Part shown: positions 28,772 through 50,416 of the stretch, piece by piece
How the letters are laid out: each line of letters opens with the position of its first letter
How positions within the stretch are numbered: the stretch's first letter is position 1
Assembly (NCBI GenBank): GCA_903885795.1
Contig: CAISJV010000065.1
Coordinates: 1 to 64,000 of the forward strand
Direction: 5' to 3'
DNA: 64,000 nt
From: an uncultured delta proteobacterium
GTDB taxonomy: Bacteria > Desulfobacterota > Syntrophia > Syntrophales > UBA8958
Made by a program: the position numbers and the translations under genes
Notes under the pieces: generated by a model
What the model saw: the letters and a program-made list of their open reading frames with translations, nothing else
Databases searched by the model: none
Told to the model about the DNA's origin: nothing

Positions 28772-28821
28772 CGGACAATTATCTGATGATGTGATTCTCA
28801 CACCATCCCCATCAACGTACC

Positions 28822-33001: not shown

Positions 33002-33036
33002 AACTCCTCCTTGTAAATAAAATTATTTTATCCTGT

Positions 33037-34086
33037 TTATCCCTGAGCATCTTTTACGAACGCCTTCATATCTACATGATCTCTAACCATTTTCTCTATC
33101 AGGTCGATTTTTACCGTATCCTCCTTAGTTGGAAGGGGTTCAATCCCGTCGATCCGCTTTGCCGTTTCGTGTGTATCCGTAGAGACCAGCAGCAGCGGAA
33201 TCCCCAAGTTTTCAGCCTTTGAAATGATGACCGATGATGGCACAATATTGTTGGAGAGGATCACAGCAGCCACCCGGCTTTCAAGGGAGGTCAGGATCAA
33301 ATCACTGCGGTCACCGCTGATGATGACGACTTGATGATGATCCTGAAACAGCGGGCTTTTCATGGCCGCGTCAGCACCCATGGAGCCCACGACAATGTTT
33401 CTGACCTGACAATTCAAGCCGGACTCGCCGGCCAGAACTTTTGCAAACATCCTATCCGCAAGAAACCTTGCGGAAAAATAAGTCAACTCAGGAATAACGG
33501 GAATGACGCCCAGCACCGGAACATCCATCTGTCGGATCCTTGGCAGATATATATCATTAAAATCGTCAATGTTGACGACCTTGTTGATAACAACCCCCAT
33601 GAAAGAGAGATCGTCCATCCGGATATACTTTGCAAGAAAGCTTACATCATCAATAATGGTATCCTCATCGCCGCTGACCATAACCAGGAGTTTTCCCTCC
33701 AAGTTCCTGGCCAGTGAGATGGCATCAAGGTAAACCGATGTTCCGAAATAGATGTCTTTTCCTGCTTCCACAAAGATCGAATCCTTATTCTGACTGACAT
33801 GATCCAGTGTTTCCAGGAGCTTTGTCTTTGTTGCTTCCTCATCCAGGGAATAAAAAAGCTTGGAATGATGAAACCCGATGCTCATATCCTCGGGAGCCTC
33901 ATCGAGATTGAAGATGTGAGCCATGAGGGCGGCATCGTAGTCCCAAAGCCGTTTCTTCTTGTAGATGAATCTTGCCCCGAAGGGCTTCATATAGCCGAGT
34001 TTATTGTTTAATATCTTGGCCAGACCGATAATCAGGCTCGTTTTTCCCGCACTCGGCCGCATGGACGTGATGATAAATTTATCCAT
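33037..34086 (-). CDS. P-loop/DRTGG-domain protein (Pta-N-terminal-like)
   Basis: A 349-residue protein. The N-terminal P-loop domain of the BioD type begins MDKFIITSMRPSAGKTSLIIG. The C-terminal DRTGG-like region (residues 215-320) includes VVIISGDRSDLILTSLES and ILSNNIVPSSVIISKAENLGIPLLLV. This matches the regulatory N-terminal part of long phosphate acetyltransferases as a free-standing protein. It follows the synthetase at 5 bases. A role in sensing acyl-CoA or energy state is inference. Confidence 0.8.
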   Translation of the reverse strand: MDKFIITSMRPSAGKTSLIIGLAKILNNKLGYMKPFGARFIYKKKRLWDYDAALMAHIFNLDEAPEDMSIGFHHSKLFYSLDEEATKTKLLETLDHVSQNKDSIFVEAGKDIYFGTSVYLDAISLARNLEGKLLVMVSGDEDTIIDDVSFLAKYIRMDDLSFMGVVINKVVNIDDFNDIYLPRIRQMDVPVLGVIPVIPELTYFSARFLADRMFAKVLAGESGLNCQVRNIVVGSMGADAAMKSPLFQDHHQVVIISGDRSDLILTSLESRVAAVILSNNIVPSSVIISKAENLGIPLLLVSTDTHETAKRIDGIEPLPTKEDTVKIDLIEKMVRDHVDMKAFVKDAQG

Positions 34087-34091
34087 CTAAT

Positions 34092-36230
34092 TCACCTCTT
34101 TTCATTTTTCTCCAGAATGATCCGTATATCCACCGCCCGCACACCCTCTCCCTGTTCGTAAACGACCAGGGGATTAATTTCAATATCCGAAATCCCCTCG
34201 CAATGGCGAAGAATAGCCCCCAAGATGATGATAACATTCACAATGGCGGCTACATCCTTCATTTTTTCTCCCCGCACTCCGAGGAGCAGCGGATAGGAAT
34301 GAAGTTCCTTGATCATACCGATAATATCCTTTGCATTGACGGGAAGGGACCGGAAAGAAACATCTTTCATGACTTCCACATAGATCCCGCCCAGGCCGAT
34401 CATAATTGTCGGCCCGAAGGTCTGATCGATCCTGGCGCCTACAATAAGCTCCGTCCCGGGTTTAACCATTTCCGAAATATCGACCCCGTCAATCAGCGCT
34501 TGAGGAGCATAAGTCTTGCAACTGCGCAGAATGGCGCCGTAGGCATTGACGACCTCGCCGTCATTTTCCAGGTTCAGGGCAATCCCACCGGCATCACTCT
34601 TGTGGATGATGTCCTTGGAAACAACTTTCATAACCACAGGATAACCGATGGTATTGGCCGCCTCAACTGTACTCTTGATGGTCTGGGCCTGGATACTTCT
34701 CGGAATGGGAATGCCAGCCAGGTTCATGATTTTCTGGGCCTCATGAGCCAGCAGGAAGAACCGCCCCTTATTTCTTGCAGTGGACACAACAGCCGCAATG
34801 GCCGTGATAGAAGGCACATCCGGTGCGGCATCAATAACTTCGTCTACAGGACTATCCAGATATTCTTTATATCGATACATCGCTCCCAGGGAGGAAGCCG
34901 TTTCATAAACATCATCGGAAACGGGAATACCTCTTTTCTTCGCGGAAACCACGTAATCTGCCGTCTGTTGACCACCGAAAAGAGAAAATACAATGAGTTT
35001 TCCTCGGCTCTTGTATTTAAGGAAATTCTTTTCAATGATGTTTCCAAGGTCCACGGAAGGTGAGAGCGCCGATTCGCAGTAGATGCCGAAAACCGTATGA
35101 ATGTTGTCCTCGGCCAGGGCCGCATCAAATGCTTTGGTGTAATCGACAGCTGTCGCCTGACCGGTAATATCAATCGGATTCTTGGTAGATCCGAATGCAG
35201 GAATGACAGAGGAAAAAATACTTTTCAGGTTTTGAGGATCGTCATAAAGACTGACGCCATATTTCTCACAGGCGTCCGCTGCCATCACGCCGGCCCCTCC
35301 GCCATTGGTAATGATAACCGTGTTTCCTCCTTTGGGGAGCGGGTTGCCCGCCAGGATCATCGCCCAGTTAAAAGCCTCTTTTGTGCTTTCCGCACGGAGC
35401 GCACCGCACTGGCGGATCACATCGTCAAAAACCTTGTCCGAACCGGCCAGCGAACCGGTATGGGACGCGGCTGCCCTGGCGCCTTTCTCGGAACGGCCTG
35501 ACTTGATCACCACCACCGGCTTTTTCCGGGCGGCATTTCTGACGGCCTGGATGAATTTCTCGCCATCCCGCACGCCTTCTATGTACATGAGGATGACATG
35601 TGTTGTCTCATGATCGCAAAGATAGGTCAGAAGATCGGACTCATCAATGTCCGACTTGTTTCCGACGGAAACAATGGCAGATAAGCCAATATTTTCAACG
35701 GAAGCCTGACCGACCAAGGTCAGCCCGAGGGCGCCGCTCTGGGTGATCATGGCCAGATTACCCGACGGGATATTGCCGGATACGAACGTGGCGTTCAAAC
35801 TGACCTGTGAGGAATAAACGCCGAACACATTGGGGCCAAGAATCCGCATCCCCCGGGAGCGGGCGTAATCGACGATTCTTTTTTCTTCTTCAAAATTTCC
35901 GACCTCCGAAAAGCCGGAGGTAATGATGATGCAGTGCTTGACACCCCGGTCTGCGCATTGGCTGATGGCGCCAAAGACATGCTTTGCGGGAATCGTGATA
36001 CAGGCTACGTCAATCTCCTCCCCGATATCCAGAATACTGCGGAAGACGGGAATTCCTGCCATGTCACCGCCAGATGGATTGACCGGATAAATTTTTCCTT
36101 TATAACCGCCCGATTGGATATTTTTCAAGACCGCATAACCGATCTTGCTCTTGTCGCTGGATGCTCCCACAATGGCAATGGAACGCGGTTCAAATAGATA
36201 GCGGATGTGACCGTTGTCACTTTTCGTCAT
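34092..36230 (-). CDS. NDP-forming acyl-CoA synthetase (fused subunits)
   Basis: A 712-residue protein. The CoA-binding domain has FEPRSIAIVGASSDKSKIGYAVLKN near residue 12. The ligase-CoA domain has the likely phospho-histidine in ASHTGSLAGS near residue 257 and ITNGGGAGVMAADACEKYG. The C-terminal ATP-grasp domain has GYPVVMKVVSKDIIHKSDAGGIALNL and EINPLVV. It makes acyl-CoA and ADP from acid, CoA and ATP, or the reverse to harvest ATP, a typical trait of fermenters and syntrophs. Acetate is likely, but other short acids are possible. Confidence 0.88.
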   Translation of the reverse strand: MTKSDNGHIRYLFEPRSIAIVGASSDKSKIGYAVLKNIQSGGYKGKIYPVNPSGGDMAGIPVFRSILDIGEEIDVACITIPAKHVFGAISQCADRGVKHCIIITSGFSEVGNFEEEKRIVDYARSRGMRILGPNVFGVYSSQVSLNATFVSGNIPSGNLAMITQSGALGLTLVGQASVENIGLSAIVSVGNKSDIDESDLLTYLCDHETTHVILMYIEGVRDGEKFIQAVRNAARKKPVVVIKSGRSEKGARAAASHTGSLAGSDKVFDDVIRQCGALRAESTKEAFNWAMILAGNPLPKGGNTVIITNGGGAGVMAADACEKYGVSLYDDPQNLKSIFSSVIPAFGSTKNPIDITGQATAVDYTKAFDAALAEDNIHTVFGIYCESALSPSVDLGNIIEKNFLKYKSRGKLIVFSLFGGQQTADYVVSAKKRGIPVSDDVYETASSLGAMYRYKEYLDSPVDEVIDAAPDVPSITAIAAVVSTARNKGRFFLLAHEAQKIMNLAGIPIPRSIQAQTIKSTVEAANTIGYPVVMKVVSKDIIHKSDAGGIALNLENDGEVVNAYGAILRSCKTYAPQALIDGVDISEMVKPGTELIVGARIDQTFGPTIMIGLGGIYVEVMKDVSFRSLPVNAKDIIGMIKELHSYPLLLGVRGEKMKDVAAIVNVIIILGAILRHCEGISDIEINPLVVYEQGEGVRAVDIRIILEKNEKR

Positions 36231-36291
36231 TTTAGCTCATCCTTATGAGAACGGTTATCAATAGAAAGTTCCTTAATGGTGAAAATACTGC

Positions 36292-37749
36292 TCATAATAT
36301 TCGTCTTAGTGATGATACTTTGACAGTATCTTTCCCTGCTGATGGCTGGTTTCGGTCGGCTTTCTCGACTTTTCCCACAGCGTCAAACAGGCAGTCATGG
36401 TCATCCAGGTAGGACGTATCGAAGATTCCACGCTTGAAGTCAGGCTCGTCACAGATTGCTAGGTAGAAGGGAATTGTCGTTTTGGGGCCGACAATGACAA
36501 AGTCGCCTAATGCTCTTTTCAGGTTTGCGACGGCTTCATCCCAGCAAGTCCCCCAGACGGTCATATTGACCAGGAGCGAATCATAAACAGTCGGAATGGC
36601 ATATCCGGCTTTGATGGTACCATCCAGACGAATGCCGGGCCCGGCGGGTGGCCGGTAGATTTCCACTGTCCTGCCCCCGTCGGGCCAAAAATGATTCAGG
36701 GGATCTTCTGCATTAATCCTCACATGGATGGCGCAACCCTTCATGACAACATCTTCCTGCTGCAGATCAAGATGATTTCCCTCAGCAATCTCAATTTGCT
36801 TTTTAATAATGTCAACGCCTACGACCATCTCTGTGACGGAGTGTTCGACCTGAAGCCGCTTATTGAGTTCCATAAACCAAAATTCCTTTGTTTTCAGATC
36901 GTAGAGAAACTCGACGGTACCGGCATTGACGTACCCCACCTGACGAGCCGCCTTGATCGCCGTCCGACACATAGCGCTCATAATATCTACCGGAATGGAT
37001 GATGCCGGGGCAACTTCGAGAAGTTTTTGATGACGCCGTTGAATGGAGCAGTCCCGTGATCCCAGATGAACCACCTTTCCATATGAATCAGCCAGGATCT
37101 GGATCTCGATATGGCGGGGTGCGGCGATGAATTTTTCCGCGTAGATACCATCATGATTAAACGCGAAAAGGACTTCGTGCCTGGCATGATTAAGTTGTGT
37201 CCTCGCCGAGTCGGCTCCTTCCACTTCCCTGATTCCGATGCCGCCACCGCCATCAACGGCTTTCAGAAGGATGGGGTAGCCCACTTTTTCAGCAAAAGCG
37301 AGAATCTCGCGGACGCCATCCTCTCCCGAAGACAGGATACCGGTCCCGGGAACTGTCGCAATTTCCGCTTTTTTCATAATCGTTTTAGTGGCTGCCTTGT
37401 CTCCCAAACGACGCATCACCTGAACGGAAGGGCCAATAAAGATCAGCCCGTTCTTCTCACAGGCTGCTGCAAAATCGGCACACTCGGCCAGGAATCCATA
37501 ACCGGGATGAATAGCGTCAGCTCCCGTTTTGTGGGCCGCCCAGATGATTTTGTCGATATCGAGGTAATCCTTTACGGGACCATCCCCGATCATGACCGCG
37601 GTACCGGCAAGACGGATATAATTCGCCTCGCTGTCCGGCATTTCGTACACAGCAACTGTCTTCATGCCCATGGACTGAGCAGTTTTGATAATGGAGAATG
37701 CAACTTCCCCACGGTTGGCGATCAGCAGTTTTTTAATTTTTTTGTTCAT
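36292..37749 (-). CDS. accC: Biotin carboxylase subunit
   Basis: A 485-residue biotin carboxylase: IKKLLIANRGEVAFSIIKTA at the start, ATP-grasp glycine loop KAVDGGGGIGIREVE, IEIQILADSYGKVVHLGSRDCSIQRRHQKLLE, and MELNKRLQVEHSVTEMVVGVDIIKKQI. The usual length is about 450, so there is a 30-residue C-terminal extension. No biotin carrier or carboxyltransferase gene is nearby, so the partner is encoded elsewhere. It may belong to an acyl-CoA or pyruvate carboxylase. Confidence 0.88.
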   Translation of the reverse strand: MNKKIKKLLIANRGEVAFSIIKTAQSMGMKTVAVYEMPDSEANYIRLAGTAVMIGDGPVKDYLDIDKIIWAAHKTGADAIHPGYGFLAECADFAAACEKNGLIFIGPSVQVMRRLGDKAATKTIMKKAEIATVPGTGILSSGEDGVREILAFAEKVGYPILLKAVDGGGGIGIREVEGADSARTQLNHARHEVLFAFNHDGIYAEKFIAAPRHIEIQILADSYGKVVHLGSRDCSIQRRHQKLLEVAPASSIPVDIMSAMCRTAIKAARQVGYVNAGTVEFLYDLKTKEFWFMELNKRLQVEHSVTEMVVGVDIIKKQIEIAEGNHLDLQQEDVVMKGCAIHVRINAEDPLNHFWPDGGRTVEIYRPPAGPGIRLDGTIKAGYAIPTVYDSLLVNMTVWGTCWDEAVANLKRALGDFVIVGPKTTIPFYLAICDEPDFKRGIFDTSYLDDHDCLFDAVGKVEKADRNQPSAGKDTVKVSSLRRIL

Positions 37750-37791
37750 CTTCAGTTCACCAGCTCATCCCGGTTTATTTCCCGGAAGTAA

Positions 37792-37815
37792 AGGCGCTGC
37801 CGCTGGGCGGCGCCT
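37792..37815 (-). terminator. Short intra-operon hairpin
   Basis: AGGCGC and GCGCCT pair around a GC-rich loop between the permease and biotin carboxylase genes. It may slow transcription or protect mRNA ends; there is only a short T stretch. Confidence 0.35.
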
Positions 37816-37826
37816 CATTTCCCCTC

Positions 37827-39266
37827 TTAGTGAATCGGGGGCACATAGGGGATATACTGGGCAAATAACCAGCACAGGAAAAAGATCAGAGGAACATGGA
37901 CAACCAGTTGGAGGAAGGAATATCCGACGAGATCTCTTGCCTTTACCTGGAGCATCCCCAGCAAAGGAAGCATCCAGAAGGGGTTGATAAGGTTCGGCAG
38001 GGCTTCCGCCGCGTTGTAGATCTGAACCACCCACCCCATATTGACCTGGTGTGCCTGGGCCGCCTGCAGAATGTAAGGGGCTTCAATGATCCACTTGCTT
38101 CCGCCGGAAGGCACGAATACCCCCAGAAGAGCTGAATAAAAGGCCACAAGGAGGGGATAGGTGCCCTGGGTTGTGATGGCGACGAAGAGTTTGGCCAACC
38201 AGTCTGAAATGCCCGTTCCGACGATCATGCCGAAGATGACGGCATAAAAGGGAAACTGGATCAGGACGCCGCCCGTGGCCGGGATGGACTGTGTGACGGC
38301 CCGGAGGAAACGCTTCGGGCGCCAGTGCAGCAGGAGACCCACGACGATGAAGATCAGATTGTAGATGTTCAGATCCAGCGCTGCCATGGCCCCCTGGGGT
38401 GATGTCATGAAGACGTTAATGATGTATCCGCCGAGAATGAGGCACACGACAATCGTCAGGAAAGGACTGTATTCCAGCCATTCTCCCGGTTTTGACCGTT
38501 CTTCAAGGGTCATATCGATGGGTTCGAACTTCAGACCGAAGTCTTCGGCCGTTTTCGCATTTTCCGGCGATGGGCAGGAGAAGTAGGCGATGGCCATCGA
38601 CACGATGATAAGAATAATGGCGGTTACGATGGTTGGCCAGATGAAAAGGGTCTGGGTCAACGGGATCACGCCGCTGATTTCGTACAGTTTGGGCGGGATG
38701 GCCCCTTTGGTCGCCATGAGCAGGGCTGCGGATGAGGATAATCCTAGGGCCCATACGGCTCCCAATCCCAAATATCCGGCCGCACCGGCGGCCCGGTAAT
38801 CCATGCCCTTAATGCGATTAGTCAATTCGCGGACGAGCATCCCGCTGAAGATCAGGCTGAATCCCCAGGAAATCAGCGAGGTCAGCATGGAGAAGCAGGC
38901 CACAAAGGCAACCGCCCCTCTCGGTGTTTTTGGAATGGTGGCCATCTTCTGAATGATGCGGTAGACGGGTGGTGCGGAGGCGACTACAAAACCGCCGATG
39001 ATCACCATGACCATCTGCATCGTGAATGGAACGAGTGTCCAGAAGGCTTTTCCGCCCTGGATGGCTAATTTAACCGGACTTTCTCCGAGGAGAAGGCCGA
39101 AGCAAAAAACGATCAAGATGCCCAGAAGGGCAAAAACCAGCGCATCGGGGAACCACTTTTCACTCCACTCCGCAAGAGTGAGACCCGCGCGCTGCATGAA
39201 TCCACCTTCTACGAGAGCTGATTTGGTAATAGTCCTTTTTGGTTCTTTTATGTCCTGTTCCTTCAT
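37827..39266 (-). CDS. atoE: Short-chain fatty acid transporter (AtoE family)
   Basis: A 479-residue membrane protein with about 12 helices. RAGLTLAEWSEKWFPDALVFALLG, the SLISWGFSLIFSGMLVRE region, the serine-rich LGLSSSAALLMATKG and the C-terminal VPSGGSKWIIEAPYILQAA match the AtoE/TIGR00366 family. It moves short-chain fatty acids such as butyrate across the inner membrane. Its place between CoA transferase and CoA ligase genes fits acid uptake or release. Confidence 0.88.
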   Translation of the reverse strand: MKEQDIKEPKRTITKSALVEGGFMQRAGLTLAEWSEKWFPDALVFALLGILIVFCFGLLLGESPVKLAIQGGKAFWTLVPFTMQMVMVIIGGFVVASAPPVYRIIQKMATIPKTPRGAVAFVACFSMLTSLISWGFSLIFSGMLVRELTNRIKGMDYRAAGAAGYLGLGAVWALGLSSSAALLMATKGAIPPKLYEISGVIPLTQTLFIWPTIVTAIILIIVSMAIAYFSCPSPENAKTAEDFGLKFEPIDMTLEERSKPGEWLEYSPFLTIVVCLILGGYIINVFMTSPQGAMAALDLNIYNLIFIVVGLLLHWRPKRFLRAVTQSIPATGGVLIQFPFYAVIFGMIVGTGISDWLAKLFVAITTQGTYPLLVAFYSALLGVFVPSGGSKWIIEAPYILQAAQAHQVNMGWVVQIYNAAEALPNLINPFWMLPLLGMLQVKARDLVGYSFLQLVVHVPLIFFLCWLFAQYIPYVPPIH

Positions 39267-39320: not shown

Positions 39321-41210
39321 TTATTCCTTGAAGGCCATCGTCATCTCATAGATACCGGCAATATTATGCTTTACCGTATCGAACCCACCATTCTCAAACA
39401 CGTGAAGCATTGGCTTGTTCTCTGCCAAGACCTCTGCCGTAAATCCCAGGAGCCCCTGTCTCTTGGCAAGGTAAGTCAGATATGCAAGCAGCTCTGTCCC
39501 AATACCTCTTTTATGGTACTCATCCCTTACGGCAAACGCCACTTCTGCGGAATGCTTGCTCTCGTCAATAAAATATCTTCCGACGCCGACGATTTCCTGA
39601 TTATCCTCATTGCCAACCGTGGCAACGATCGCCATTTCTTTGGTGTAATCGATAACGACAAACTCCTGGAGCCGTTCATGGGGCATATCTTTACGAACGG
39701 AAATGAACCGTCGGTACAAACTGTTGTCAGAAAGAGAATAAATAAAATTCTTTAAAAGCGGTTCATCACTGATTTTGATAGGGCGGAAGAATATCTTGAA
39801 ACCAGATTTGGTGGTTTTGTAAGACTCCAGTTCCTCGGGATACCTTCCTTTCTCCCCCGGGATGAACGCCTGATCCTGATAGATCAGACCGGCCTTTTTT
39901 GCTTCTTCGACAAGCCAGGGTCTGAATTTGGGGTGAGCAATGGCAATCAGGTCCATTGCCCGCTCACGAATGCTTTTCCCGTGAATATAGGCAATGCCGT
40001 ACTCTGTTACAACATAGTGGATGTCACCGCGAATCAATGTCGTCCCGGCCCCCTCTTTAAGTGCCGGTGTGATTCTTGAAATACTGTCGCCCACTGCCGT
40101 TGACGGAAGGGCAAGAATGGCCCTGCCGTTTCGGGACAAGAAAGCCCCGCGCATAAAATCGGCTTGACCACCGATCCCGCTGTAAAAAACCTTTCCGATA
40201 GATTCCGCCGTAGCCTGTCCCGAAAGGTCGATTTCCAGGGCACTGTTGATGGCCACCATATTTTCATGCTGGGCAATTACGAGAGGGTTGTTGGTATAGT
40301 CTATGGTCCTGAATTCTATATCCGGATTGTCATGGATAAATTCGTACGTTTCTTCATGTCCCATACAAAATGTCGCTACAGATTTCCCACGGTTGATTGT
40401 TTTCTTTGTATTGTCGATAGCACCTTTTTTCATTAGTTCGACAATACCGTCACTGAAGAGTTCAGTATGCACACCGAGATGTTTTTTCCCGGAAAGGTTT
40501 TCAAGGATGGCGTTGGTAACGGCTCCATATCCGATTTGGATCGTATCGCCGTCCTCGACAAGTCGAGCAATGTTTACCCCGATTTTATTGGTAATTTCCA
40601 GGTTTGACTCCGGGCTGTATTCAAGGAGAGGCTCATCATGAGGTAATAAAAAATCGATATCATCCATGTAAATAAAAGAATCTCCATGGACGCGAGGCAT
40701 ATGATTATTCATCTGGGCAATAACATAAGAGGCGTTTTCAACGGCAGCCTTGACAATGTCCAGACTGACGCCAAGGCTCAAATGGCCATGGCTGTCCGGC
40801 AGGGTCGTTTGAATAAGGGCCACATCGACATTGACGAGGCCCCTGTGAAACAAAGATGGCAACTGGGACAGGAGAATAGGCGTGTAGTCCGCCTGCCCCG
40901 TGTTGATGGCATCCCTCGTTGTATCGCCGATAAAGAAAGAATTATGCCGAAAGTTTTGCTTGAATTTTTTTTCAGTATACGGGGCTACGCCGAGGGTCCT
41001 CACATGAATGATTTCAGCATCGAAAAAGGCATGAGGTTTTGACTCGACATAGCGGATCAATCCCTGAACAAGATATTGCGGCTCCGCACAGGCTGATCCG
41101 ATAAATATCGTATTGCCGCGATGAATATGGCTGAAGATGACATCTTCGGATGCGAACTTCTCGGGATATTTCTCTTTCCAGTATTCCAGTGATTTCATCT
41201 CTAACTTCAT
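39321..41210 (-). CDS. Acetyl-CoA hydrolase/CoA-transferase fused to GNAT acetyltransferase
   Basis: A 629-residue fusion. Residues 1-440 are a CoA transferase of the acetyl-CoA hydrolase/4-hydroxybutyrate CoA-transferase type (IFIGSACAEPQYLVQGLIRYV, GIGGQADFMRGAFLSRNGRAILALPS, VTEYGIAYIHGKSIRERAMDLI). Residues 465-629 are a GNAT domain (VEVAFAVRDEYHKRGIGTELLAYLTYLAKRQGLLGFTAEVL, Q/RxxGxG/A motif). The GNAT part could acetylate enzymes of the pathway. ATG 41210 overlaps the TGA of a 15-codon leader ORF (ATGA). First gene of the six-gene operon. Confidence 0.88.
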   Translation of the reverse strand: MKLEMKSLEYWKEKYPEKFASEDVIFSHIHRGNTIFIGSACAEPQYLVQGLIRYVESKPHAFFDAEIIHVRTLGVAPYTEKKFKQNFRHNSFFIGDTTRDAINTGQADYTPILLSQLPSLFHRGLVNVDVALIQTTLPDSHGHLSLGVSLDIVKAAVENASYVIAQMNNHMPRVHGDSFIYMDDIDFLLPHDEPLLEYSPESNLEITNKIGVNIARLVEDGDTIQIGYGAVTNAILENLSGKKHLGVHTELFSDGIVELMKKGAIDNTKKTINRGKSVATFCMGHEETYEFIHDNPDIEFRTIDYTNNPLVIAQHENMVAINSALEIDLSGQATAESIGKVFYSGIGGQADFMRGAFLSRNGRAILALPSTAVGDSISRITPALKEGAGTTLIRGDIHYVVTEYGIAYIHGKSIRERAMDLIAIAHPKFRPWLVEEAKKAGLIYQDQAFIPGEKGRYPEELESYKTTKSGFKIFFRPIKISDEPLLKNFIYSLSDNSLYRRFISVRKDMPHERLQEFVVIDYTKEMAIVATVGNEDNQEIVGVGRYFIDESKHSAEVAFAVRDEYHKRGIGTELLAYLTYLAKRQGLLGFTAEVLAENKPMLHVFENGGFDTVKHNIAGIYEMTMAFKE

Positions 41211-41254
41211 ATCAATCTCATTCGCAATCTCATTCGCATGATTAAGAGGATCAT
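41207..41254 (-). pseudogene. ABM-derived 15-codon leader ORF, coupled to CoA transferase
   Basis: On the minus strand ATG at 41254 lies 2 nt after the predicted transcription start and encodes MILLIMRMRLRMRLI. The first eight residues follow the ABM gene start. The TGA overlaps the CoA-transferase ATG. There is no good Shine-Dalgarno before 41210, so coupling from this ORF is a reasonable mode of initiation. Confidence 0.55.
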
Positions 41255-41266
41255 GAAATCAGTGAT

Positions 41267-41282
41267 AGCAAATGACCTGCCA
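41267..41282 (-). promoter_or_regulatory. Sigma-54 promoter, leftward (acyl-CoA operon)
   Basis: On the minus strand TGGCAGGTCATTTGCT, with GG and GC ten bases apart. It lies 133 bp from the CCTCAA that begins at 41415 on the same strand. Predicted start about 41256. Confidence 0.86.
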
Positions 41283-41375
41283 ATAGCCGAAGGAAGATAA
41301 TAATTATAAATTCACCATATAATAACAGGCTGTTAGGCAAAAAAGAGGAAGCTGCAGAGAAGTATGAAAGGAATC

Positions 41376-41421
41376 GTTTGGCCTCAACATTTGGTGGAAC
41401 CTCAGCATATTGAGGCCAAAC
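41376..41421. promoter_or_regulatory. Shared bidirectional operator (cassette I)
   Basis: GTTTGGCCTCAACAT at the left end and ATATTGAGGCCAAAC at the right end form a long inverted repeat around TTTGGTGGAACCTCAGC. Read leftward it has the full cassette layout (palindrome CCTCAATATGCTGAGG, TTCCACCA spacer, third half-site). Read rightward the outer half-sites are in the same places but the internal order is inverted. Both promoters lie 133 bp from the outer CCTCAA. Confidence 0.85.
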
Positions 41422-41514
41422 AAATCATTGCATGCTTTCCCGCTTTCTCCTCTTGCTTATTTAAAATGCTGTTATTAAACAAAGAATCCAAATATTGGTT
41501 TTTCCTGCGGCTAT

Positions 41515-41530
41515 TGGCAGACCATTTGCT
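41515..41530 (+). promoter_or_regulatory. Sigma-54 promoter, rightward (glucan synthase)
   Basis: TGGCAGACCATTTGCT with correct GG-N10-GC spacing, 133 bp from the CCTCAA at 41382. A TTATTAAACAAAGAATCC block lies near 41472, as in the other cassettes. Predicted start about 41541. Confidence 0.85.
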
Positions 41531-41542
41531 ACTACCGCTTTC

Positions 41543-41680
41543 ATGACCCGTTTAATTATACGAATCAAGGTCCTTTCCGAGAGGTGCATGGAGTCGTCTC
41601 AGGCGCTTCTTTCACTCTTCGGTTTGATAGCGGGAGTCCAAGACGCTACCATATTCGCACAACCGTTTATTTACACTTAG
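41543..41680 (+). pseudogene. ABM-derived 45-codon ORF
   Basis: ATG 2 nt after the predicted start; MTRLIIRIKVLSERCMES and later LLSLFGLIAG match the ABM gene, then the frame diverges and stops at TAG 41680, 24 bases before the glucan synthase start. It is a decayed ABM 5' half that may be translated as a leader. Confidence 0.6.
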
Positions 41681-41704
41681 CCTGTCAACAAGGAGATATT
41701 CAAT

Positions 41705-44700
41705 TTGGCGTCCCTAAACACGACCATTATCGGAAGTCTGCACCAATTGTGGGTGCGTCTCCGTGGAAACAGTTCAGCGCACAGAAACTTCGGCGACGAG
41801 CCACCCCTCAGATCGGAGTTGTTCAGCGCCTCCCAGATGGAGCAACATGGTAAGACCCTTGCCGCATCACACAAATTGAGCGCAGGCCATCCACCTGAAA
41901 AACTGTTGAGGCGGCTCGGTGAGAATGAAGACGTCCTCCGTGAAGTTCGCGACTTGATCACAGAGGCTGTGAAAGGAAACCGGAGGATTACACCGGCAGG
42001 GGAATGGCTACTTGACAACTTCTATCTCGTGGAAGAACAGATTCGCACCGCCAAGAGACACCTGCCAAAAGGCTACAGCAAGGGACTGCCCCGCTTGGAA
42101 GAGGGGCCATCAACTGGTCTTCCCCGTGTGTACGACATTGCCCTGGAGACGATCTCTCACGGTGATAGCCGGGTGGATCCGGAGAGCCTCAGCAGTTTCG
42201 TGGTGGCCTATCAGACAGTAACCGTCTTGAAGCTGGGCGAATTATGGGCCATTCCCATCATGCTCCGCCTGGCGCTGATTGAAAATCTCCGGCGCATTGC
42301 CACACGGATTGCTGCCGACAGGATCGACAAGAACCATGCCGATTACTGGGCGGACCGGATTACTGAGACCGCCGAGGTGAACCCTAAGGATTTAATGCTG
42401 GTCATTGCCGACATGGCGCGCTCAAAACCTCCCATGGTCAGCTCCTTTGTTGCAGAGCTTACACGCCGCCTGAAGGGCCAAAGTCCCGCCCTCGCATTGC
42501 CCCTTACCTGGATCGAACAGCAACTCTCGGAGACAGGTTTGACGATTGAACAGTTGGTGCAATCAGAAAACCAGCAGCAAGCGGCAGATCAGCTTTCCAT
42601 AAGCAACAGCATCGGCAGCCTCCGTTTCCTGGGTGCTATGGATTGGCGCAAATTTGTCGAAACCATGAGCGCGGTCGATCAGACCCTCCGCGAGGATCCT
42701 GCCGGTGTGTACGGTAAGATGGATTTCGTCACTCGAGATCAATACCGTCACGTCGTGGAAAAGATAGCGAAGAACAGCCGATTATCCGAAAACGAGGTGG
42801 CGAGCGTTGCGGTGCGCCTCGCCGGGGAGGGCGGGGGCAGGGTGAACGACGACGATCGGGAGAGTCATATCGGCTTCTATCTCATGGACAAGGGGTTGGC
42901 TCTGCTCGAAGGTACTGCCTGCACGCGCTTGTCTTTCCCTGAGGCGTTTCGGAAGGTAATTCAGCGTTTTCCTGTGTTCTTCTATCTTGGTACGATCTGC
43001 TTGCTCTCCGTGCTCTTTACCGGGTGTTTGCTTGCCGAGGCACATGCCAACGGGTTGCGCGGCACCTGGATATGGCTTATCGGCATGGTCTCGTTTCTGG
43101 CTGTCAGCCAGTTAGCGATTGCCCTGGTGAACTGGCTTGCAACGCGGCTTGTGGCGCCCCATACCCTGCCTCGAATGGACTTCTCCAAAGGAATTCCTCC
43201 GGAATCGTCTGCTCTGGTCGTGGTCCCTACGATGCTCACGGGTGCTCAAAACATCGAGCATCTGATGGAAGCGCTGGAGGTCAGGTTCCTTGCAAATAGA
43301 GGCGAAAACCTGCGTTTTGCACTGCTGACTGATTTTCTGGATGCCAACGAGGAAACACAGCCTGATGACGGTCCGCTACTACTTTTGGCCCGGCAGAGAA
43401 TCGAAGAGCTGAACGAAAAATACAGAACTTCAAAAAGCGACGCCTTTTTCCTTTTCCATCGTCCCCGCCGATTAAATCCCCAGGACAATATCTGGATGGG
43501 TTACGAACGTAAGCGGGGGAAGCTCGCGGAGCTGAATTCTTTTCTCCGCGGCGGTTCAAGAGAGTGCTTTTCCCTCATCATCGGCAATACAGATGGATTG
43601 GAGAAGGTGAGATACATCATCACCCTCGACACAGATACACAGCTCCCCCGTGACGCGGCGTGGCAGCTTGTGGAGACTATGGCGCACCCGCTGAATCGTC
43701 CGCAATACGATGAAGACAGACAACGGATATGTGCCGGATACGGTATCCTTCAGCCACGGGTGGCTGTGAGCCTGTCCGGCGCGAACCGGTCACGGTATGC
43801 CCGCATGTGGGGAAGTGATGCAGGCATCGATCCTTATACCCGCGTTGTCTCCGATGTGTACCAGGACCTGTTTGGAGAAGGCTCTTTCATCGGCAAGGGC
43901 ATTTATGAGGTAGATGCTTTCGAGCAGGCCCTCAAGGGACGTTTTCCTGATAACCGGATTTTGAGCCACGATCTTATCGAAGGGTGTTATGCGCGGGCAG
44001 GTCTTCTGAGCGATGTGCAGTTGTATGAAGAATACCCCTCTCGCTACAGCGCCGATGTGAACCGCAGGCACCGCTGGATTCGCGGGGACTGGCAGCTTTT
44101 AAGGTGGCTGCTGCCTGGAGACACTGGTCCGGATGCGCGTTTTAAGAAAAACCCCCTCTCTCTGCTTTCCCGATGGAAGATTTTCGACAACCTTCGGCGC
44201 AGCCTCTCGCCCTTGGCATTGACGCTCCTGCTGCTGATGGGCTGGACAATTTTGCCAGTGCCCTGGTTCTGGACCTTGTCGGTCCTGGGGATCATCGTGA
44301 TTCCTGCCTTGGTTAGCTCTTTGATGGATCTGTTTCAGAAGCCGAGTGATGTCCTTCTCCATCGGCACATTCTGGCCGCTTTCCGCGAGACCGGGAGGAG
44401 CCTTGGACAGATTGCCTTTACCTTCCTATGTCTGCCCTACGAGGCATTTTTCAGTATGGACGCTGTGCTGCGCACCATCTGGCGAATGCTGGTTGCGAAG
44501 AAGCGGCTTCTCGAATGGAACCCTTCGGGCGACTCTGATCGCACGATCCGGAAGGGCCTTGCCGGCGCCATCCGGACCATGTGGATCTCCCCGGTCATTT
44601 CCGTTGCCACGGTGATCCATCTTACCTCTTCGCGGCCGGAGGCCCTGGTTGTTGCCCTGCCTGTCCTGATCCTCTGGTTCTTTTCTCCCTGGGTAGCGTG

Positions 44701-47700
44701 GTGGATCAGTGAGCCCCTCAGCCGCCCGGAAGCGCGGCTCACCTCCGACCAGATGATCTTTTTGAGAAAGATTTCCCGAAAAACATGGGCCTACTTCGAG
44801 ACCTTCGTCGGCCCGGAGGATCATTGGCTACCGCCCGATAACTATCAGGAACATCCCCTTGCCAAGGTTGCCCATCGTACTTCGCCGACCAATATGGGGC
44901 TTGCCCTTCTTGCCAATTTGTCCGCCTGGGATTTCGGCTATATTTCTACAGGGCAACTTATCGAGCGCACGGATAATGCATTCCGTGCGATGGAAGCCAT
45001 GGAGCGCTACAAAGGGCACTTTTACAACTGGTATGACACAGAGTCTTTGCAGCCACTACTGCCTATGTATGTTTCGACTGTGGACAGCGGAAATCTTGCG
45101 GCCCATTTGTTAACATTGCGAACGGGGTTCATTGCCCTCCCTGAAGAGAGCATAATGGGAGCAAAATTATTTGACGGGCTCCTCGATACACTGAGGGTAC
45201 TCATGGATGTTGCCGGAGAAACCGCCTCAGCCGGGTTTATTCAAGTGCACCATGATTTGGCGTCTTTGTGCGCTTTCCGTCCGGATACGCTTCAGGTTGC
45301 ATGGGAGAGCCTTAGCAGTATCGCCGCGTCTGCCCTGGAAGTGGTCCACGTCTCTGAAGCCGCTCCTGAGAGTCAAACCGCATGGTGGGCGCGGGCCTTT
45401 GCCGGCCAATGCCGGGCCGCCCTTGACGACCTGAGCTTTTTTGCGACATGGATAGTGCTCTCAATCCCTCCCAAGGTGTTCAGCGATCTCGCTGTTCTCG
45501 GCGAGATTCCGACGTTGCGCAAATTGGCCAATCTTGACGGAGATTTACTGCCGGCAATGACAGAGAGACACGACGGGACGTCGGAGGAGCGGAAGCAGCT
45601 TGATGAACTTCGAGGGGCCATCAAGGAGGCAAGCATCCGGGCCAGGGCGAGAATCGCGGTTATCGAGGACCTTGCATCGCAATCCGGTGAATTTGCCCGT
45701 ATCGATTATGACTTTCTCTATGATGAGACACGCCATCTGCTGGCTATCGGTTACAACATCGGTGAAAACCGACGGGATGCGAGTTACTATGATTTACTGG
45801 CTTCGGAAGCGAGACTCCCCAGTTTTGTCGCCATTGCCCAGGGACAATTGCCGCAGGAGAGCTGGTTTGCCCTGGGACGACTCCTTACTACCGCCGCCGG
45901 AGAGCCGGTTCTCCTTTCCTGGAGCGGCTCCATGTTCGAATACCTTATGCCTCTCCTCGTCATGCCCACCTATGAACAGACGCTCCTTGACGAAACCTGT
46001 AAGGCTGCTGTGGCAAGACAGATCGAGTATGGAAAAGAGCGGGGGGTACCGTGGGGGATTTCGGAATCCGGGTATAACATGATCGACGGTCATCTCAATT
46101 ACCAGTACAGCGCCTTTGGCGTGCCCGGACTAGGACTCAAACGCGGTCTCGCCGGGGATCTGGTCGTTGCTCCCTATGCCTCAGTGCTGGCGCTCATGGT
46201 GGCGCCTGAAGAGGCATGCCTCAATCTCGAGGATCTCGCCGCCCAGGGTTTTGAGGGGAAGTATGGTTTTTATGAAGCTATTGACTACACCCCTTCCCGT
46301 CTGCCCCGCGGTCAAATCAATGCGGTGGTTAGATCTTTTATGGCCCATCATCAGGGCATGAGCCTCATCTCTCTGGCATCTTTGCTCCTCAACCGTCCCA
46401 TGCAGAGGCGGTTCGCGTCGGACCCCTCGTTTCAGGCAATTATGCTTTTGCTTCAGGAGCGGGTGCCAAAAGCAACGGCCTTCTATTCGCACACAACCGA
46501 ACTTGCCACAGCCTCAAATGAATCGGAAGAGATGCCAATGCGCGTCTACACTACCCCCGACACACCCATACCGGAAGTGCAGTTGTTGTCAAACGGCAGA
46601 TATCATGTCATGGTCACAAACGCGGGCGGCGGTTACAGCCGCTGGAAAGATCTGGCGGTGACGCGGTGGCGCGAAGACAGCACCTGTGACAACTGGGGTA
46701 CCTTCTGTTATATTCGTGACTTGTCAACAGGCGCTTTCTGGTCATCGTCATACCAACCCGCACTCAAGGCCTCGAAGCAGTATGAGGCAATATTCTCGGA
46801 AGGACGAGTAGAGTTTCGCCGCCGAGATAAGGACTTTGAAACCCATACGGAGATTGCGGTTTCACCTGAGGATGACATCGAGCTGCGCCGGATTACCATC
46901 ACCAACCGGGCACGGACACGTCGAATGATCGAGGTGACGAGTTATGTGGAGGTTGTTCTCGCACCCCCAGCTCAGGACGCTCTGCACCCGGCCTTCAGCA
47001 ATCTCTTTGTCCAGACCGAGATCATTCGCGATCAAAGGGCGATCCTCTGCTCGCGCCGGCCCCGCTCCCTCGAAGAACAGTCGCCATTGATGTTACATCT
47101 CATGGCTGTGCACGGGGCCAAGACCGGTGAAGTTTCCTATGAGACTGATCGTATGCGGTTTATTGGCCGCGGGAATACCATTGCCGATCCGGAAGCGATG
47201 AAAGGTTCATCCGGACTTTCGGGCAGTGAGGGATCGGTGCTCGATCCGATCGCAGCAATCCGCTATCAAATAACCCTGGGTCCGGAAAAATCGGTAACCA
47301 TCATTATTGTCAACGGTATTGCTGAAACCAGAGATACCTGCATGGAACTTGTCGGGAAATATCAGGACCGGTATCTTGCCGATCGTGTCTTTGATCTGGC
47401 GTGGACCCATAGCCAGGTGCTGCTGAGGCAGATCAATGCCACGGAAGCCGATGCGCAGCTTTTTGGTCGTCTTGCCGCTTCAGTCATATACGCGAATTCG
47501 TCGCTGCGTGCCGGTCCCGAGACCATAATCCAAAACCGTCGCGGCCAATCCGGTCTCTGGGGCTACTCTGTTTCCGGCGATCTCCCTATCGTGCTGTTGC
47601 AGATTGAGGATCCGGCCAACATCAACTTGGTGCGACAACTTGTTCAAGCCCACTCATACTGGCGTCTCAAAGGACTGGCAGTCGACCTGATAATCTGGAA

Positions 47701-50416
47701 CGAAGATCACGCCAGTTACCGGCAACTTCTTCACGAGCAGATCATAGGGCTAATCGCTGCAGGGACAGAGGCAAATGTGACCGATCGACCGGGTGGAATT
47801 TTCGTAAGACCTTCCGACCAGATATCGAAGGAGGACCGCGTCCTGTTCCAGGCGGTTGCTCGCATTATCATCACTGACCGCAGGGGAACGCTTACGGATC
47901 AGTTCAAGGAGCGGAGCTTCACAGAAGTAATGTTGCCTGCCCCTATGCCAACACGAACCGTAAGGGACGAAGACCCGGCAATAGCGGCAACGCCTCGCCA
48001 GGACCTGATGTTTGGAAACGGCTTGGGAGGGTTCACCCCTGATGGCCGGGAGTACGTCATCTCAACTTCCCGTGGGCAGGTGACGCCGGCGCCGTGGGTG
48101 AATGTGCTGGCGAACCGGCTTTTCGGAACCGTTGTCTCGGAGAATGGTCTTGCCTATACCTGGAGCGAAAACGCCCACGAGTTTCGTCTTACCCCCTGGT
48201 ATAACGATCCTGTCACCGATTCGAGCGGGGAAGCCTTTTACATTCGCGATGAAGAGCGCGGCCACTTCTGGTCTCCCATGCCGCTGCCCAGGCGCGGAGC
48301 CACGCCTTATGTCACCCGCCACGGATTCGGCTACAGCGTTTTCGAGCATACCGAACATGGTATCAAAACAGAGATATGGGTGTACGTGGCTCTGGAGGAT
48401 GCTGTCAAGTTTACGGTACTGAAGGTGCGAAACCTCTCAGGACGGTCACGGCGACTTTCTGCCACGGGATATGCAGAATGGGTGCTGGGAGATTTGAGGC
48501 CCAAATCAGTCATGCATGTAATTACCGAGCTCAACCCTCTGAGCGGAGCCATTTTTGCTCGCAACCCATACAACACCGAATTTGGCAACCGAACGGCCTT
48601 TTTTAATGTGGACGATGCAACCCGGACCATAAGCGGCGATCGGACGGAATTCATCGGGCGTAACGGAACGCTCGCCAATCCTGCTGCCATGGGGCGGTCA
48701 CGGCTTTCCGGCAGGGTAGGGGCCGCTTTGGATCCATGCGGTGCCATCCAGGTGGCCTTTGAGCTGGCGGACGGGGAAGAGCGTGAGATAGTCTTTACCT
48801 TGGGCGCAGGCCAGGATGCAGGTGAGACTGGCGACGTGGCACATCGCTTCCGTGGGGCTGCCGCGGCCCGTGAGGCGCTTGAAGCTGTATGGCAGTATTG
48901 GAGCCATACCCTCGGCGCCGTTCAGGTGGAGACACGGGACCCGGCCATCAACTTCCTAGTCAACGGCTGGCTCTTATACCAGACGCTCGCATGCCGTCTT
49001 TGGGGGCGGAGCGGTTACTACCAGTCAGGAGGCGCCTTTGGCTTCCGTGACCAGTTGCAGGACATGATGGTCCTCATCCACACCGAGCCGGGCCTCATAC
49101 GCGAGCACATCCTTCTTGCCGCAGGTCGTCAATTCCCCGAAGGGGATGTACAGCACTGGTGGCATCCACCTTCGGGCCGGGGCGTGCGCACCCACTGCTC
49201 GGATGATTTTCTCTGGCTGCCGCTGGCGACGTGCCGCTACGTTATGACCACCGGGGATACCGGGTTGCTGGATGAATCCGTGCGCTTCATTAAGGGACGT
49301 CCGGTCAGTGCCGAGGAAGACTCATATTATGATCTGCCCGGCCGGTCTGAAGAAAAGGCCAGTCTCTACGATCATTGTGTTCGGGCTATCGCAAGAGGCC
49401 TCAGTTTCGGCGAACATGGCCTGCCGCTTATCGGTTCCGGTGACTGGAACGACGGCATGAATATGGTGGGTAAAGACGGCAAAGGCGAAAGTGTCTGGCT
49501 TGCATTCTTCCTGTATGATGTGCTCATGAGGTTCATTTCTGTCGCACGCATTCATGGGGACCTGCCCTTTGCCGAACGTTGTGAGAAAGAAGCAGGCAAG
49601 CTGCGCGGTCACATCGAGGAGCATGGCTGGGATGGTGCGTGGTACCTCCGGGCTTTCTTCGATGACGGCACGCCCCTCGGCTCAGCGGCCAATCCCGAGT
49701 GCCGGATCGATTCCATTGCGCAAAGCTGGTCTGTCCTGTCAGGGGCAGGAAGCGCTGCGCGCTCACACATGGCAATGGACGCAGTAGACAAGCACCTCGT
49801 ACGTCGTGAGCATGCCTTGGTCCAGCTTCTCGACCCGCCTTTCGACAAGTCAAATATGAATCCCGGCTACATAAAGGGGTACGTCCCCGGGGTCAGGGAA
49901 AATGGCGGGCAGTATACACATGGGGCCATCTGGGCCGCCATGGCCTTTGCTGCCATGGGTGACAGCAGGCGGGCGTGGGAAATCCTGACCATGATCAACC
50001 CGGTGAATCATGGGGGATCGGTTAAGGGGATTGAAACTTACAAAGTGGAGCCCTACGTTGTTGCGGCTGACGTCTATGCAGTAGCACCCCACACGGGTCG
50101 TGGCGGATGGACGTGGTACACGGGATCAGCCGGATGGATGTACCGGCTGATCCTGGAATCACTCCTGGGGCTGAGACTCGAAGTTGACAAACTGCACATC
50201 GAGCCCTGTCTCCCTGCCGACTGGGATGGTTTCACGGTGCACTATCGCTACCGGGAGACCATCTACCACATAAAGGTCGTGCAGAGCGACGCAGGCGAAA
50301 ACGAGAAGTGCATAATCGTTGATGGGGTTGTGCAGCGGAAGCAGACGATTCCCCTTAGGGACGATCACAATGAACACTTTGTAGAAGTGGTCGTGGTGCC
50401 AATGCTGCTTCGCTAA
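41705..50416 (+). CDS. ndvB: Cyclic beta-1,2-glucan synthase (GT84-GH94)
   Basis: A 2903-residue membrane enzyme, the usual length for Cgs/NdvB. An N-terminal helical region is followed by helices near 425-490. The glycosyltransferase domain has the DTDTQLP motif near residue 642, LSHDLIEG, and RRHRWIRGDWQ near residue 788; more helices are near 835-1020. A glycoamylase-type domain (about 1080-1540) has ISESGYNMIDGHLNYQYSAFG. C-terminal GH94 phosphorylase-like modules (about 1600-2890) contain SGDWNDGMNMVG with the acid Asp near 2580. The family makes periplasmic cyclic glucans for osmotic protection. Start TTG 41705 follows AAGGAGATATTCAA. The sigma-54 cassette suggests stress-induced synthesis. 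Confidence 0.93.
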   Translation: MASLNTTIIGSLHQLWVRLRGNSSAHRNFGDEPPLRSELFSASQMEQHGKTLAASHKLSAGHPPEKLLRRLGENEDVLREVRDLITEAVKGNRRITPAGEWLLDNFYLVEEQIRTAKRHLPKGYSKGLPRLEEGPSTGLPRVYDIALETISHGDSRVDPESLSSFVVAYQTVTVLKLGELWAIPIMLRLALIENLRRIATRIAADRIDKNHADYWADRITETAEVNPKDLMLVIADMARSKPPMVSSFVAELTRRLKGQSPALALPLTWIEQQLSETGLTIEQLVQSENQQQAADQLSISNSIGSLRFLGAMDWRKFVETMSAVDQTLREDPAGVYGKMDFVTRDQYRHVVEKIAKNSRLSENEVASVAVRLAGEGGGRVNDDDRESHIGFYLMDKGLALLEGTACTRLSFPEAFRKVIQRFPVFFYLGTICLLSVLFTGCLLAEAHANGLRGTWIWLIGMVSFLAVSQLAIALVNWLATRLVAPHTLPRMDFSKGIPPESSALVVVPTMLTGAQNIEHLMEALEVRFLANRGENLRFALLTDFLDANEETQPDDGPLLLLARQRIEELNEKYRTSKSDAFFLFHRPRRLNPQDNIWMGYERKRGKLAELNSFLRGGSRECFSLIIGNTDGLEKVRYIITLDTDTQLPRDAAWQLVETMAHPLNRPQYDEDRQRICAGYGILQPRVAVSLSGANRSRYARMWGSDAGIDPYTRVVSDVYQDLFGEGSFIGKGIYEVDAFEQALKGRFPDNRILSHDLIEGCYARAGLLSDVQLYEEYPSRYSADVNRRHRWIRGDWQLLRWLLPGDTGPDARFKKNPLSLLSRWKIFDNLRRSLSPLALTLLLLMGWTILPVPWFWTLSVLGIIVIPALVSSLMDLFQKPSDVLLHRHILAAFRETGRSLGQIAFTFLCLPYEAFFSMDAVLRTIWRMLVAKKRLLEWNPSGDSDRTIRKGLAGAIRTMWISPVISVATVIHLTSSRPEALVVALPVLILWFFSPWVAWWISEPLSRPEARLTSDQMIFLRKISRKTWAYFETFVGPEDHWLPPDNYQEHPLAKVAHRTSPTNMGLALLANLSAWDFGYISTGQLIERTDNAFRAMEAMERYKGHFYNWYDTESLQPLLPMYVSTVDSGNLAAHLLTLRTGFIALPEESIMGAKLFDGLLDTLRVLMDVAGETASAGFIQVHHDLASLCAFRPDTLQVAWESLSSIAASALEVVHVSEAAPESQTAWWARAFAGQCRAALDDLSFFATWIVLSIPPKVFSDLAVLGEIPTLRKLANLDGDLLPAMTERHDGTSEERKQLDELRGAIKEASIRARARIAVIEDLASQSGEFARIDYDFLYDETRHLLAIGYNIGENRRDASYYDLLASEARLPSFVAIAQGQLPQESWFALGRLLTTAAGEPVLLSWSGSMFEYLMPLLVMPTYEQTLLDETCKAAVARQIEYGKERGVPWGISESGYNMIDGHLNYQYSAFGVPGLGLKRGLAGDLVVAPYASVLALMVAPEEACLNLEDLAAQGFEGKYGFYEAIDYTPSRLPRGQINAVVRSFMAHHQGMSLISLASLLLNRPMQRRFASDPSFQAIMLLLQERVPKATAFYSHTTELATASNESEEMPMRVYTTPDTPIPEVQLLSNGRYHVMVTNAGGGYSRWKDLAVTRWREDSTCDNWGTFCYIRDLSTGAFWSSSYQPALKASKQYEAIFSEGRVEFRRRDKDFETHTEIAVSPEDDIELRRITITNRARTRRMIEVTSYVEVVLAPPAQDALHPAFSNLFVQTEIIRDQRAILCSRRPRSLEEQSPLMLHLMAVHGAKTGEVSYETDRMRFIGRGNTIADPEAMKGSSGLSGSEGSVLDPIAAIRYQITLGPEKSVTIIIVNGIAETRDTCMELVGKYQDRYLADRVFDLAWTHSQVLLRQINATEADAQLFGRLAASVIYANSSLRAGPETIIQNRRGQSGLWGYSVSGDLPIVLLQIEDPANINLVRQLVQAHSYWRLKGLAVDLIIWNEDHASYRQLLHEQIIGLIAAGTEANVTDRPGGIFVRPSDQISKEDRVLFQAVARIIITDRRGTLTDQFKERSFTEVMLPAPMPTRTVRDEDPAIAATPRQDLMFGNGLGGFTPDGREYVISTSRGQVTPAPWVNVLANRLFGTVVSENGLAYTWSENAHEFRLTPWYNDPVTDSSGEAFYIRDEERGHFWSPMPLPRRGATPYVTRHGFGYSVFEHTEHGIKTEIWVYVALEDAVKFTVLKVRNLSGRSRRLSATGYAEWVLGDLRPKSVMHVITELNPLSGAIFARNPYNTEFGNRTAFFNVDDATRTISGDRTEFIGRNGTLANPAAMGRSRLSGRVGAALDPCGAIQVAFELADGEEREIVFTLGAGQDAGETGDVAHRFRGAAAAREALEAVWQYWSHTLGAVQVETRDPAINFLVNGWLLYQTLACRLWGRSGYYQSGGAFGFRDQLQDMMVLIHTEPGLIREHILLAAGRQFPEGDVQHWWHPPSGRGVRTHCSDDFLWLPLATCRYVMTTGDTGLLDESVRFIKGRPVSAEEDSYYDLPGRSEEKASLYDHCVRAIARGLSFGEHGLPLIGSGDWNDGMNMVGKDGKGESVWLAFFLYDVLMRFISVARIHGDLPFAERCEKEAGKLRGHIEEHGWDGAWYLRAFFDDGTPLGSAANPECRIDSIAQSWSVLSGAGSAARSHMAMDAVDKHLVRREHALVQLLDPPFDKSNMNPGYIKGYVPGVRENGGQYTHGAIWAAMAFAAMGDSRRAWEILTMINPVNHGGSVKGIETYKVEPYVVAADVYAVAPHTGRGGWTWYTGSAGWMYRLILESLLGLRLEVDKLHIEPCLPADWDGFTVHYRYRETIYHIKVVQSDAGENEKCIIVDGVVQRKQTIPLRDDHNEHFVEVVVVPMLLR

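Follow-up and report, generated by a model that had tools for sequence, protein, structure and literature searches.

The 64-kb stretch of DNA analysed here (positions 1 to 64,000 of contig CAISJV010000065.1, from an uncultured delta proteobacterium of the order Syntrophales; hereafter the window) carries, between an acyl-CoA gene read leftward and a glucan synthase gene read rightward, an inverted-repeat operator at the exact midpoint between two sigma-54-type promoters that point away from each other. That a single operator is placed here for two divergent sigma-54 promoters, as an earlier note on this DNA had proposed, is well supported by the sequence, with matching arms at equal spacing on both sides. 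We consider it reasonably probable that this two-way enhancer arose when two copies of a single sigma-54 promoter cassette were joined head to head, the cassette being a unit of operator, spacer and promoter that recurs in the window and in related genomes.

The shared operator and its direction

The operator occupies positions 41376–41421 (no strand assigned) and its outer half-sites, GTTTGGCCTCAACAT (41376–41390) and ATATTGAGGCCAAAC (41407–41421), lie where the earlier note had placed them. Both arms match the half-site search, with 0 and 1 mismatches, and the inner core, TGAGGTTCCACCA, is on the minus strand; a general repeat-finder scan of the window did not return the 41376–41421 repeat in its list. 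The ATATTGAGGCCAAAC 15-mer has several copies in the window, the first at 4831, the copy in the shared operator being that at 41407. The leftward promoter, TGGCAGGTCATTTGCT (41267–41282, minus strand), has a promoter score of 24.9 and its TGG at 41282, and the rightward promoter, TGGCAGACCATTTGCT (41515–41530, plus strand), a score of 26.0 and its TGG at 41515. Both show the GG and GC elements 10 bp apart (TGGCA-N6-TTGC) that characterize sigma-54 (−24/−12) promoters. The distance to TGG is 93 bp from the repeat edge on either side and 116.5 bp from the repeat centre on each side, and the TGAGG-to-TGG gap, calculated from coordinates, is 99 nt on both; the symmetrical pair of promoters that had been predicted is thus present, at these distances and not at the 133 bp initially given.

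Half-site, promoter and an intervening block are equally spaced in the two arms. These blocks, TGTTATTATATGGTGAAT on the left (41310–41327, minus strand) and TGTTATTAAACAAAGAAT on the right (41470–41487, plus strand), occupy the position of a conserved spacer block; they are AT-rich, conserved and located between operator and promoter, and from a by-eye comparison with the consensus we call them IHF-like, that is, putative sites for integration host factor (IHF). Identity between the two arms is 64%, a value falling among those of other pairs of cassettes, and because of this the right arm is, as judged by alignment, a separate cassette copy. The possibility that it mirrors the left arm was considered and rejected, since other pairs show a similar identity.

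The operator belongs to a family whose members elsewhere have a direction. The pattern CTCANNATNNNGNGGNNYYRCCANANNNTGAGGC was found in at least 114 stretches of named genomes (below, L numbers designate individual stretches of DNA and G numbers genomes, G000 being that of the window), and among the matches listed most titles are of Desulfobacterota type, reading Syntrophaceae, Smithella, Desulfuromonad, Desulfobulbaceae or 'Deltaproteobacteria'. In the order to which the window belongs, the operator is present with at most one mismatch in 35 of 119 genomes, with no match for the reversed control. Among the matches listed, a strict sigma-54 match lies 94–99 bp past the core in 87 of the 112 operators with room for it, 69 of these 87 being at 97 or 98 bp; on a looser score, for the 106 operators with room on both sides, a promoter is found forward only in 100 cases, reverse only in none, on both sides in one and on neither in five. 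The 112–120 operators entering such counts are not independent, since single genomes contribute several, the operator of G074 enters twice (L091, L148), and G000 and G085 belong to one genus. The operator core is directional, because 100 of 106 operators are forward-only and none reverse-only. The spacer contains, roughly midway, the conserved block TGTTATTAAA..AT, and the operator itself is a conserved dyad about 100 bp upstream of a promoter and, in many cases, near an activator gene, as in an upstream activating sequence.

At the shared operator, the operator matrix gives 67.5 leftward and 25.9 rightward, the next-best reverse score in the window being 10.2, which agrees with the initial view that the inner core points leftward only. 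Cassette contigs were also encountered in metagenome-assembled genomes titled as unrelated phyla (L037 and L074, Kiritimatiellae; L064, Ca. Taylorbacteria; L105, Brocadiaceae); the activator gene end of L105 is identical to the query, and such odd-phylum contigs are perhaps mis-binned.

Second arms at related loci

Three loci of the same genus can be compared. In G085 the acyl-CoA gene is on the left, while on the right there is the start of a PAS-domain gene (identified by eye) and no glucan synthase; both promoters are present, with scores of 27.8 (right) and 17.5 (left), and the TGAGG-to-TGG gap is 99 nt on both sides. In G074 the acyl-CoA and glucan synthase genes are head to head as in the window, there is no right arm, and the operator has the ordinary CTATCC flank. 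The core points to the acyl-CoA gene at all three loci. The orientation of the core at orthologous divergent loci was the comparison that the earlier note had called for, and its alternative of an inverted core is not supported, in view of this constant orientation, kept in G085 and G074, together with the absence of reverse-only promoters (0/106 among the matches listed). As to the right arm itself, these loci would fit equally a gain in the G000/G085 line or a loss in G074.

To each operator we assigned a second-arm score, in which the far-side DNA is compared with the spacer matrix and the promoter is left out of the scoring. It is 61.7 for the window, 41.5 for G085 and −86.1 for G074. Among the matches listed, two of 114 are outliers, L023 (35.1) and L055 (8.9), the next value being −35.5. 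There are thus four two-armed operators in all, the window, G085, L023 (which is the site of G020) and L055, two of them from one genus. The G020 arrangement also spans 262 bp, with TGAGG-to-TGG gaps of 98 and 100. Within the order, where 155 genomes were covered, the exact two-promoter pattern occurs in two, G000 and G020; within the phylum it occurs in one of 395 sampled genomes, G020 not being among them. This pattern missed G085, which differs by one half-site change.

The two-armed operators have a feature in common on the far half-site: TTTG(G/C)C stands ahead of CTCA in 4 of 4, versus 1 of 120 others (L066), among the matches listed. Operators without a second arm mostly have TATCC or CATCC before CTCA. 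The idea that this locus offers natural evidence about which half-sites matter therefore survives in a sharper form, that of the far flank, with the reservation that TTTG(G/C)C may have been inherited with the arm rather than be functionally required. Elsewhere, L029 carries two divergent cassettes with separate operators (1840–1873, minus strand, and 2224–2257, plus strand) about 350 bp apart, an arrangement that is a possible precursor state of a fused operator.

Cassette make-up, candidate activator and competing readings

Scanning with a matrix built from 114 operators of other genomes, we found in the window 9 operators serving 10 promoters, 8 one-way and 1 two-way. The distance from half-site start to TGG is 108 bp at 9 of the 10 promoters and 107 bp at the remaining one. 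The promoter pattern TGGCANRNCANTTGCW occurs 10 times in the window versus 0.02 expected, a figure that flatters since the pattern was drawn from these very sites; over the full 4.0 Mb of the genome there are 12 matches, 10 of them inside the window, and none for its reversed control. The half-site with up to 3 mismatches is found 13 times in the window versus 1.95 expected. When up to 3 mismatches are allowed, the general sigma-54 consensus is no commoner in the window than by chance (79 found versus 88.7 expected), and all eight of its 1-mismatch matches sit at operators. The same genome has three further operators accompanied by promoters, one each on C82, C83 and C84 or otherwise distributed over these contigs. 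A sigma-54-like match on another contig of this genome (C42, 258–273) has no operator in the adjoining 5 kb (L141) and is probably due to chance.

What lies on either side of these operators suggests where the cassette comes from. Among the matches listed, 40 of 118 operators have, in the 400 bp upstream, sequence coding for the C-terminus of a particular kind of sigma-54 activator (E < 0.05); in 35 of these 40 the activator gene ends 18–38 bp before the core, and in 13 exactly 29 bp before it. A full copy, in L110, has the composition of a PAS-type activator, with a PAS domain, a Sigma54_activat domain with GAFTGA, and a Fis-type HTH. In 119 genomes of the order, the operator is present in 35, the activator (at least 70 bits) in 19 and both in 17 (Fisher, 3e-9). 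The regulator is thus likely to be a PAS-type sigma-54 activator. Upstream of some operators (e.g. L006, L058, L020, L088 and L113) just the last 15–35 codons of the activator gene match. Downstream, a full-length-like gene for an ABM-domain protein follows the operator in 19 of 88 cases elsewhere and an ABM N-terminal piece in 4 more, both among the matches listed; the corresponding numbers in the window are 1 and 3. The simplest reading of these observations would be a cassette in the order activator 3′ end, operator, IHF-like spacer, promoter and ABM 5′ end, copied before other genes, those behind the window copies including BON, RNase II-type, CsbD-like, histidine kinase and glucan synthase genes.

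From the operator, promoters, matching arms, orthologues and cassette copies seen at the sequence level, we infer the following order of events. The parent cassette would be the region between the gene of a PAS-type sigma-54 activator and an ABM gene, and copies of it, often carrying scraps of one or both genes, would have been placed before many genes here and in related genomes. At the shared operator the left copy would have retained the whole operator and the right copy would have supplied a promoter-proximal half-site, spacer and promoter, the two meeting inside the common half-site TTGAGG. Sigma-54 enhancers act at a distance and in either orientation; here a single activator oligomer bound at the operator would reach either promoter through DNA looping, with an IHF-type bend in each arm, and the outcome would be co-activation of the acyl-CoA genes and the glucan synthase. 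Rightward activation would rely on the extended outer half-site and on spacing, the oriented inner half-site being absent on the right side; in its reliance on the outer half-site this agrees with the earlier note. A wider formulation, which we put forward tentatively as plausible rather than probable, is that a module of enhancer, IHF site and sigma-54 promoter, with activator 3′ end and first-target 5′ end, spreads in Desulfobacterota and has been joined head to head via half-sites in up to three lineages (G000/G085, G020 and L055), a second direction needing only an extended outer half-site and not an oriented core.

Several observations weigh against the fusion of two cassettes into a two-way enhancer. 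Because G074 keeps both genes without a right arm, the right promoter is, as far as gene content indicates, dispensable in that genome. The right arm of L055 has no canonical promoter; at 3261–3920 this scaffold repeats an inverted segment beside a run of N, and an assembly artefact may account for the missing promoters. In L066, where an activator gene ends 22 bp upstream, the TTTGCC flank is present and a second arm is lacking. The Fisher value for the flank (5e-7) was obtained on sites that are not independent, in a test framed after the data had been seen. L019 has a reverse matrix score of 28.1 without a second arm, and reverse score alone is therefore not diagnostic. The assembly from which the window comes yielded no candidate activator, a search with the activator C-terminus giving weak matches alone, although with 95 contigs its absence is unproven; no activator of at least 70 bits is present in 18 of the 35 operator-bearing genomes, this one included; G003 and G023 have the activator without the operator; and in the same-genus genomes G074, G067 and G085 the activator C-terminus is found in partial open frames of 98–294 amino acids, with no whole gene. 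In the window's genome, contigs near operators break in PAP2-like sequence (by eye; start of C65 and end of C83), therefore the activator gene may lie in an assembly gap.

Some of these observations are what would be seen if the leftward promoter alone worked, the right arm being a decaying cassette relic and the glucan synthase using another promoter. The relic explanation draws on G074, where the glucan synthase gene still stands beside the acyl-CoA gene with no right arm, on the promoterless right arm of L055, on the broken ABM remnant behind the right promoter and on a core aimed at the acyl-CoA gene in 3 of 3 same-genus loci. We nevertheless regard it as unlikely, while deserving attention, since the right promoters outscore the left ones (26.0 vs 24.9 in the window, 27.8 vs 17.5 in G085), the 99-nt gap is preserved despite a spacer identity of only 64%, and G020 also has its second promoter (score 18.0). 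The symmetry of the repeat might also serve DNA binding generally and be unrelated to the second promoter. CTCA/TGAGG outer halves are indeed found in every operator among the matches listed, weak support since the search pattern demanded them, and the far-side TTTG(G/C)C of two-armed operators, with the counts given above, makes this explanation distinctly unlikely.

The right half could instead be occupied by another activator, or by an oligomer of different assembly, that serves the right promoter only, in which case the repeat would consist of two overlapping operators. In keeping with this, the right arm carries its own extended half-site, TTGAGGCCAAAC, and the rightward score of 25.9 is far above the median reverse score of −5.2 (117 operators, among the matches listed), only L055 (31.2) and L019 being higher; yet there is a single oriented core and two complexes would need to overlap within 46 bp, so that we think it very unlikely. 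The joining of two cassette copies around one operator remains the reading that we prefer. Among the three same-genus loci, two with two promoters (G000 and G085) and one with a single promoter (G074), the far half-site and the right arm vary, and such natural variants make the two-way working of an oriented sigma-54 enhancer testable. The family as a whole indicates a widespread regulon, for which there is a likely activator, and offers a visible record of how a regulon can grow through promoter copying.

Neighbouring genes, other cassettes and known systems

The first leftward gene (39321–41210, minus strand) encodes, according to a domain search, an acetyl-CoA hydrolase/transferase fused to a GNAT acetyltransferase. 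It is followed on the same strand by genes for a short-chain fatty acid (SCFA) transporter (37827–39266), a biotin carboxylase-like protein (36292–37749), an ADP-forming acyl-CoA ligase-like protein (34092–36230), a DRTGG protein (33037–34086) and a cytidylate kinase-like protein (32291–33001); from their spacing, the genes at 32291–39266 would form an operon with the first gene. The rightward gene (41705–50416, plus strand, TTG start) encodes a 2903-amino-acid GH94-type, cyclic beta-glucan synthase-like protein, and the assignment of an acyl-CoA gene run to the left and a glucan synthase to the right is thereby confirmed.

The earlier note also had an ABM-like open reading frame (ORF) behind each promoter. 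Behind the right promoter, the first 29 residues of a 45-amino-acid ORF (41543–41680, plus strand) are indeed ABM-like (E 0.002), and this ORF, by its sequence, is an ABM remnant; its ATG lies 2 nt past the predicted transcription start. Behind the left promoter there is a 15-amino-acid ORF (41207–41254, minus strand), its ATG likewise 2 nt past the predicted start, which has no significant ABM match, its likeness to an ABM start being by eye only, and which is perhaps a remnant of the start of an ABM gene. The stop codon of this ORF and the start codon of the acyl-CoA gene overlap (ATGA), which suggests translational coupling to that start. Neither ORF contains a full ABM domain (PF03992), and the proposal that ABM genes follow both promoters was rejected, as only these short remnant ORFs of 45 and 15 amino acids are there. 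An intact ABM-domain protein of 113 amino acids is encoded at 28982–29323 (plus strand; PF03992, E 9e-16).

The eight one-way cassettes are all on the plus strand. They are located at 223–376 (operator 223–272, promoter 361–376), upstream of a BON-domain gene (533); at 4801–4954, upstream of an RNase II-type gene (5300); at 7100–7253, upstream of another BON-domain gene (7266); at 8505–8658, with a 16-amino-acid ABM-like start after the promoter (E 0.03); at 13115–13268, with a CsbD-like gene (14196) further downstream; at 19881–20034, upstream of a CHASE3-PAS histidine kinase gene (20416); at 23900–24053; and at 28817–28969, ahead of the intact ABM gene. Weak vestiges of the activator gene 3′ end were detected at 4724–4777 (E 0.13), 13056–13091 (E 0.26) and 23838–23876 (E 0.26), each separated by 29 bp from its operator (4807, 13121 and 23906, respectively); with E values of 0.13–0.26, the three would be credible solely through this repeated 29-bp gap. 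An ATG is present 28 nt after TGG at 8 of the 10 window promoters (389, 4967, 7266, 8671, 13281, 28982, 41543 and 41254), and of 81 sites in other genomes, 42 have an ATG at a distance of 27 or 28 nt from TGG, which puts it 1–2 nt beyond the predicted start; the mean is 2.3 per offset. Such ATGs at the predicted transcription start are possible leaderless ORFs, even where the ABM gene is truncated. The region 1–29000, with its eight cassette copies, is a run of genes for domains of stress or envelope type (BON, OmpA, CsbD, universal stress protein, PAP2, CHASE3 histidine kinase, HD-GYP regulator and GAF-cyclase), and the same-genus genome G074 (L174) retains many of these genes in a partly similar order.

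In narrow searches of the literature on sigma-54 regulation in Syntrophus, which covered it in part and not by operator sequence, we found no description of this operator family. The nifJ and nifH promoters share NifA sites. These Klebsiella pneumoniae genes are described as bidirectionally transcribed from sigma-54 promoters with common regulatory features (PMC3723869). They resemble the present locus by their divergent sigma-54 promoters and differ by their activator, NifA. In Desulfovibrio vulgaris, the orp1/orp2 operons have divergent sigma-54 promoters under one activator, DVU2106, and sites for IHF are located between those for the activator and for sigma-54 (PMC3897727); the activator and genes are different from those considered here, and the available portion of the article does not state a single shared symmetric operator. 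In the same species, the DVUA0100 operons also have divergent sigma-54 promoters under one activator, and DVU2956 has a site with three conserved half-sites (PMC4641369). The latter resembles our operator in having three half-sites, a likeness of description, motif letters aside, and cassette copying is not mentioned in the accessible part of that report. Divergent sigma-54 promoters under one activator are thus already known (nifJ/nifH, orp1/orp2, DVUA0100). The spread of promoters by the copying of intergenic DNA is a known idea. Compared with known promoter copying, the copied unit here appears to comprise an enhancer, a spacer and a sigma-54 promoter, together with scraps of the activator and first-target genes.
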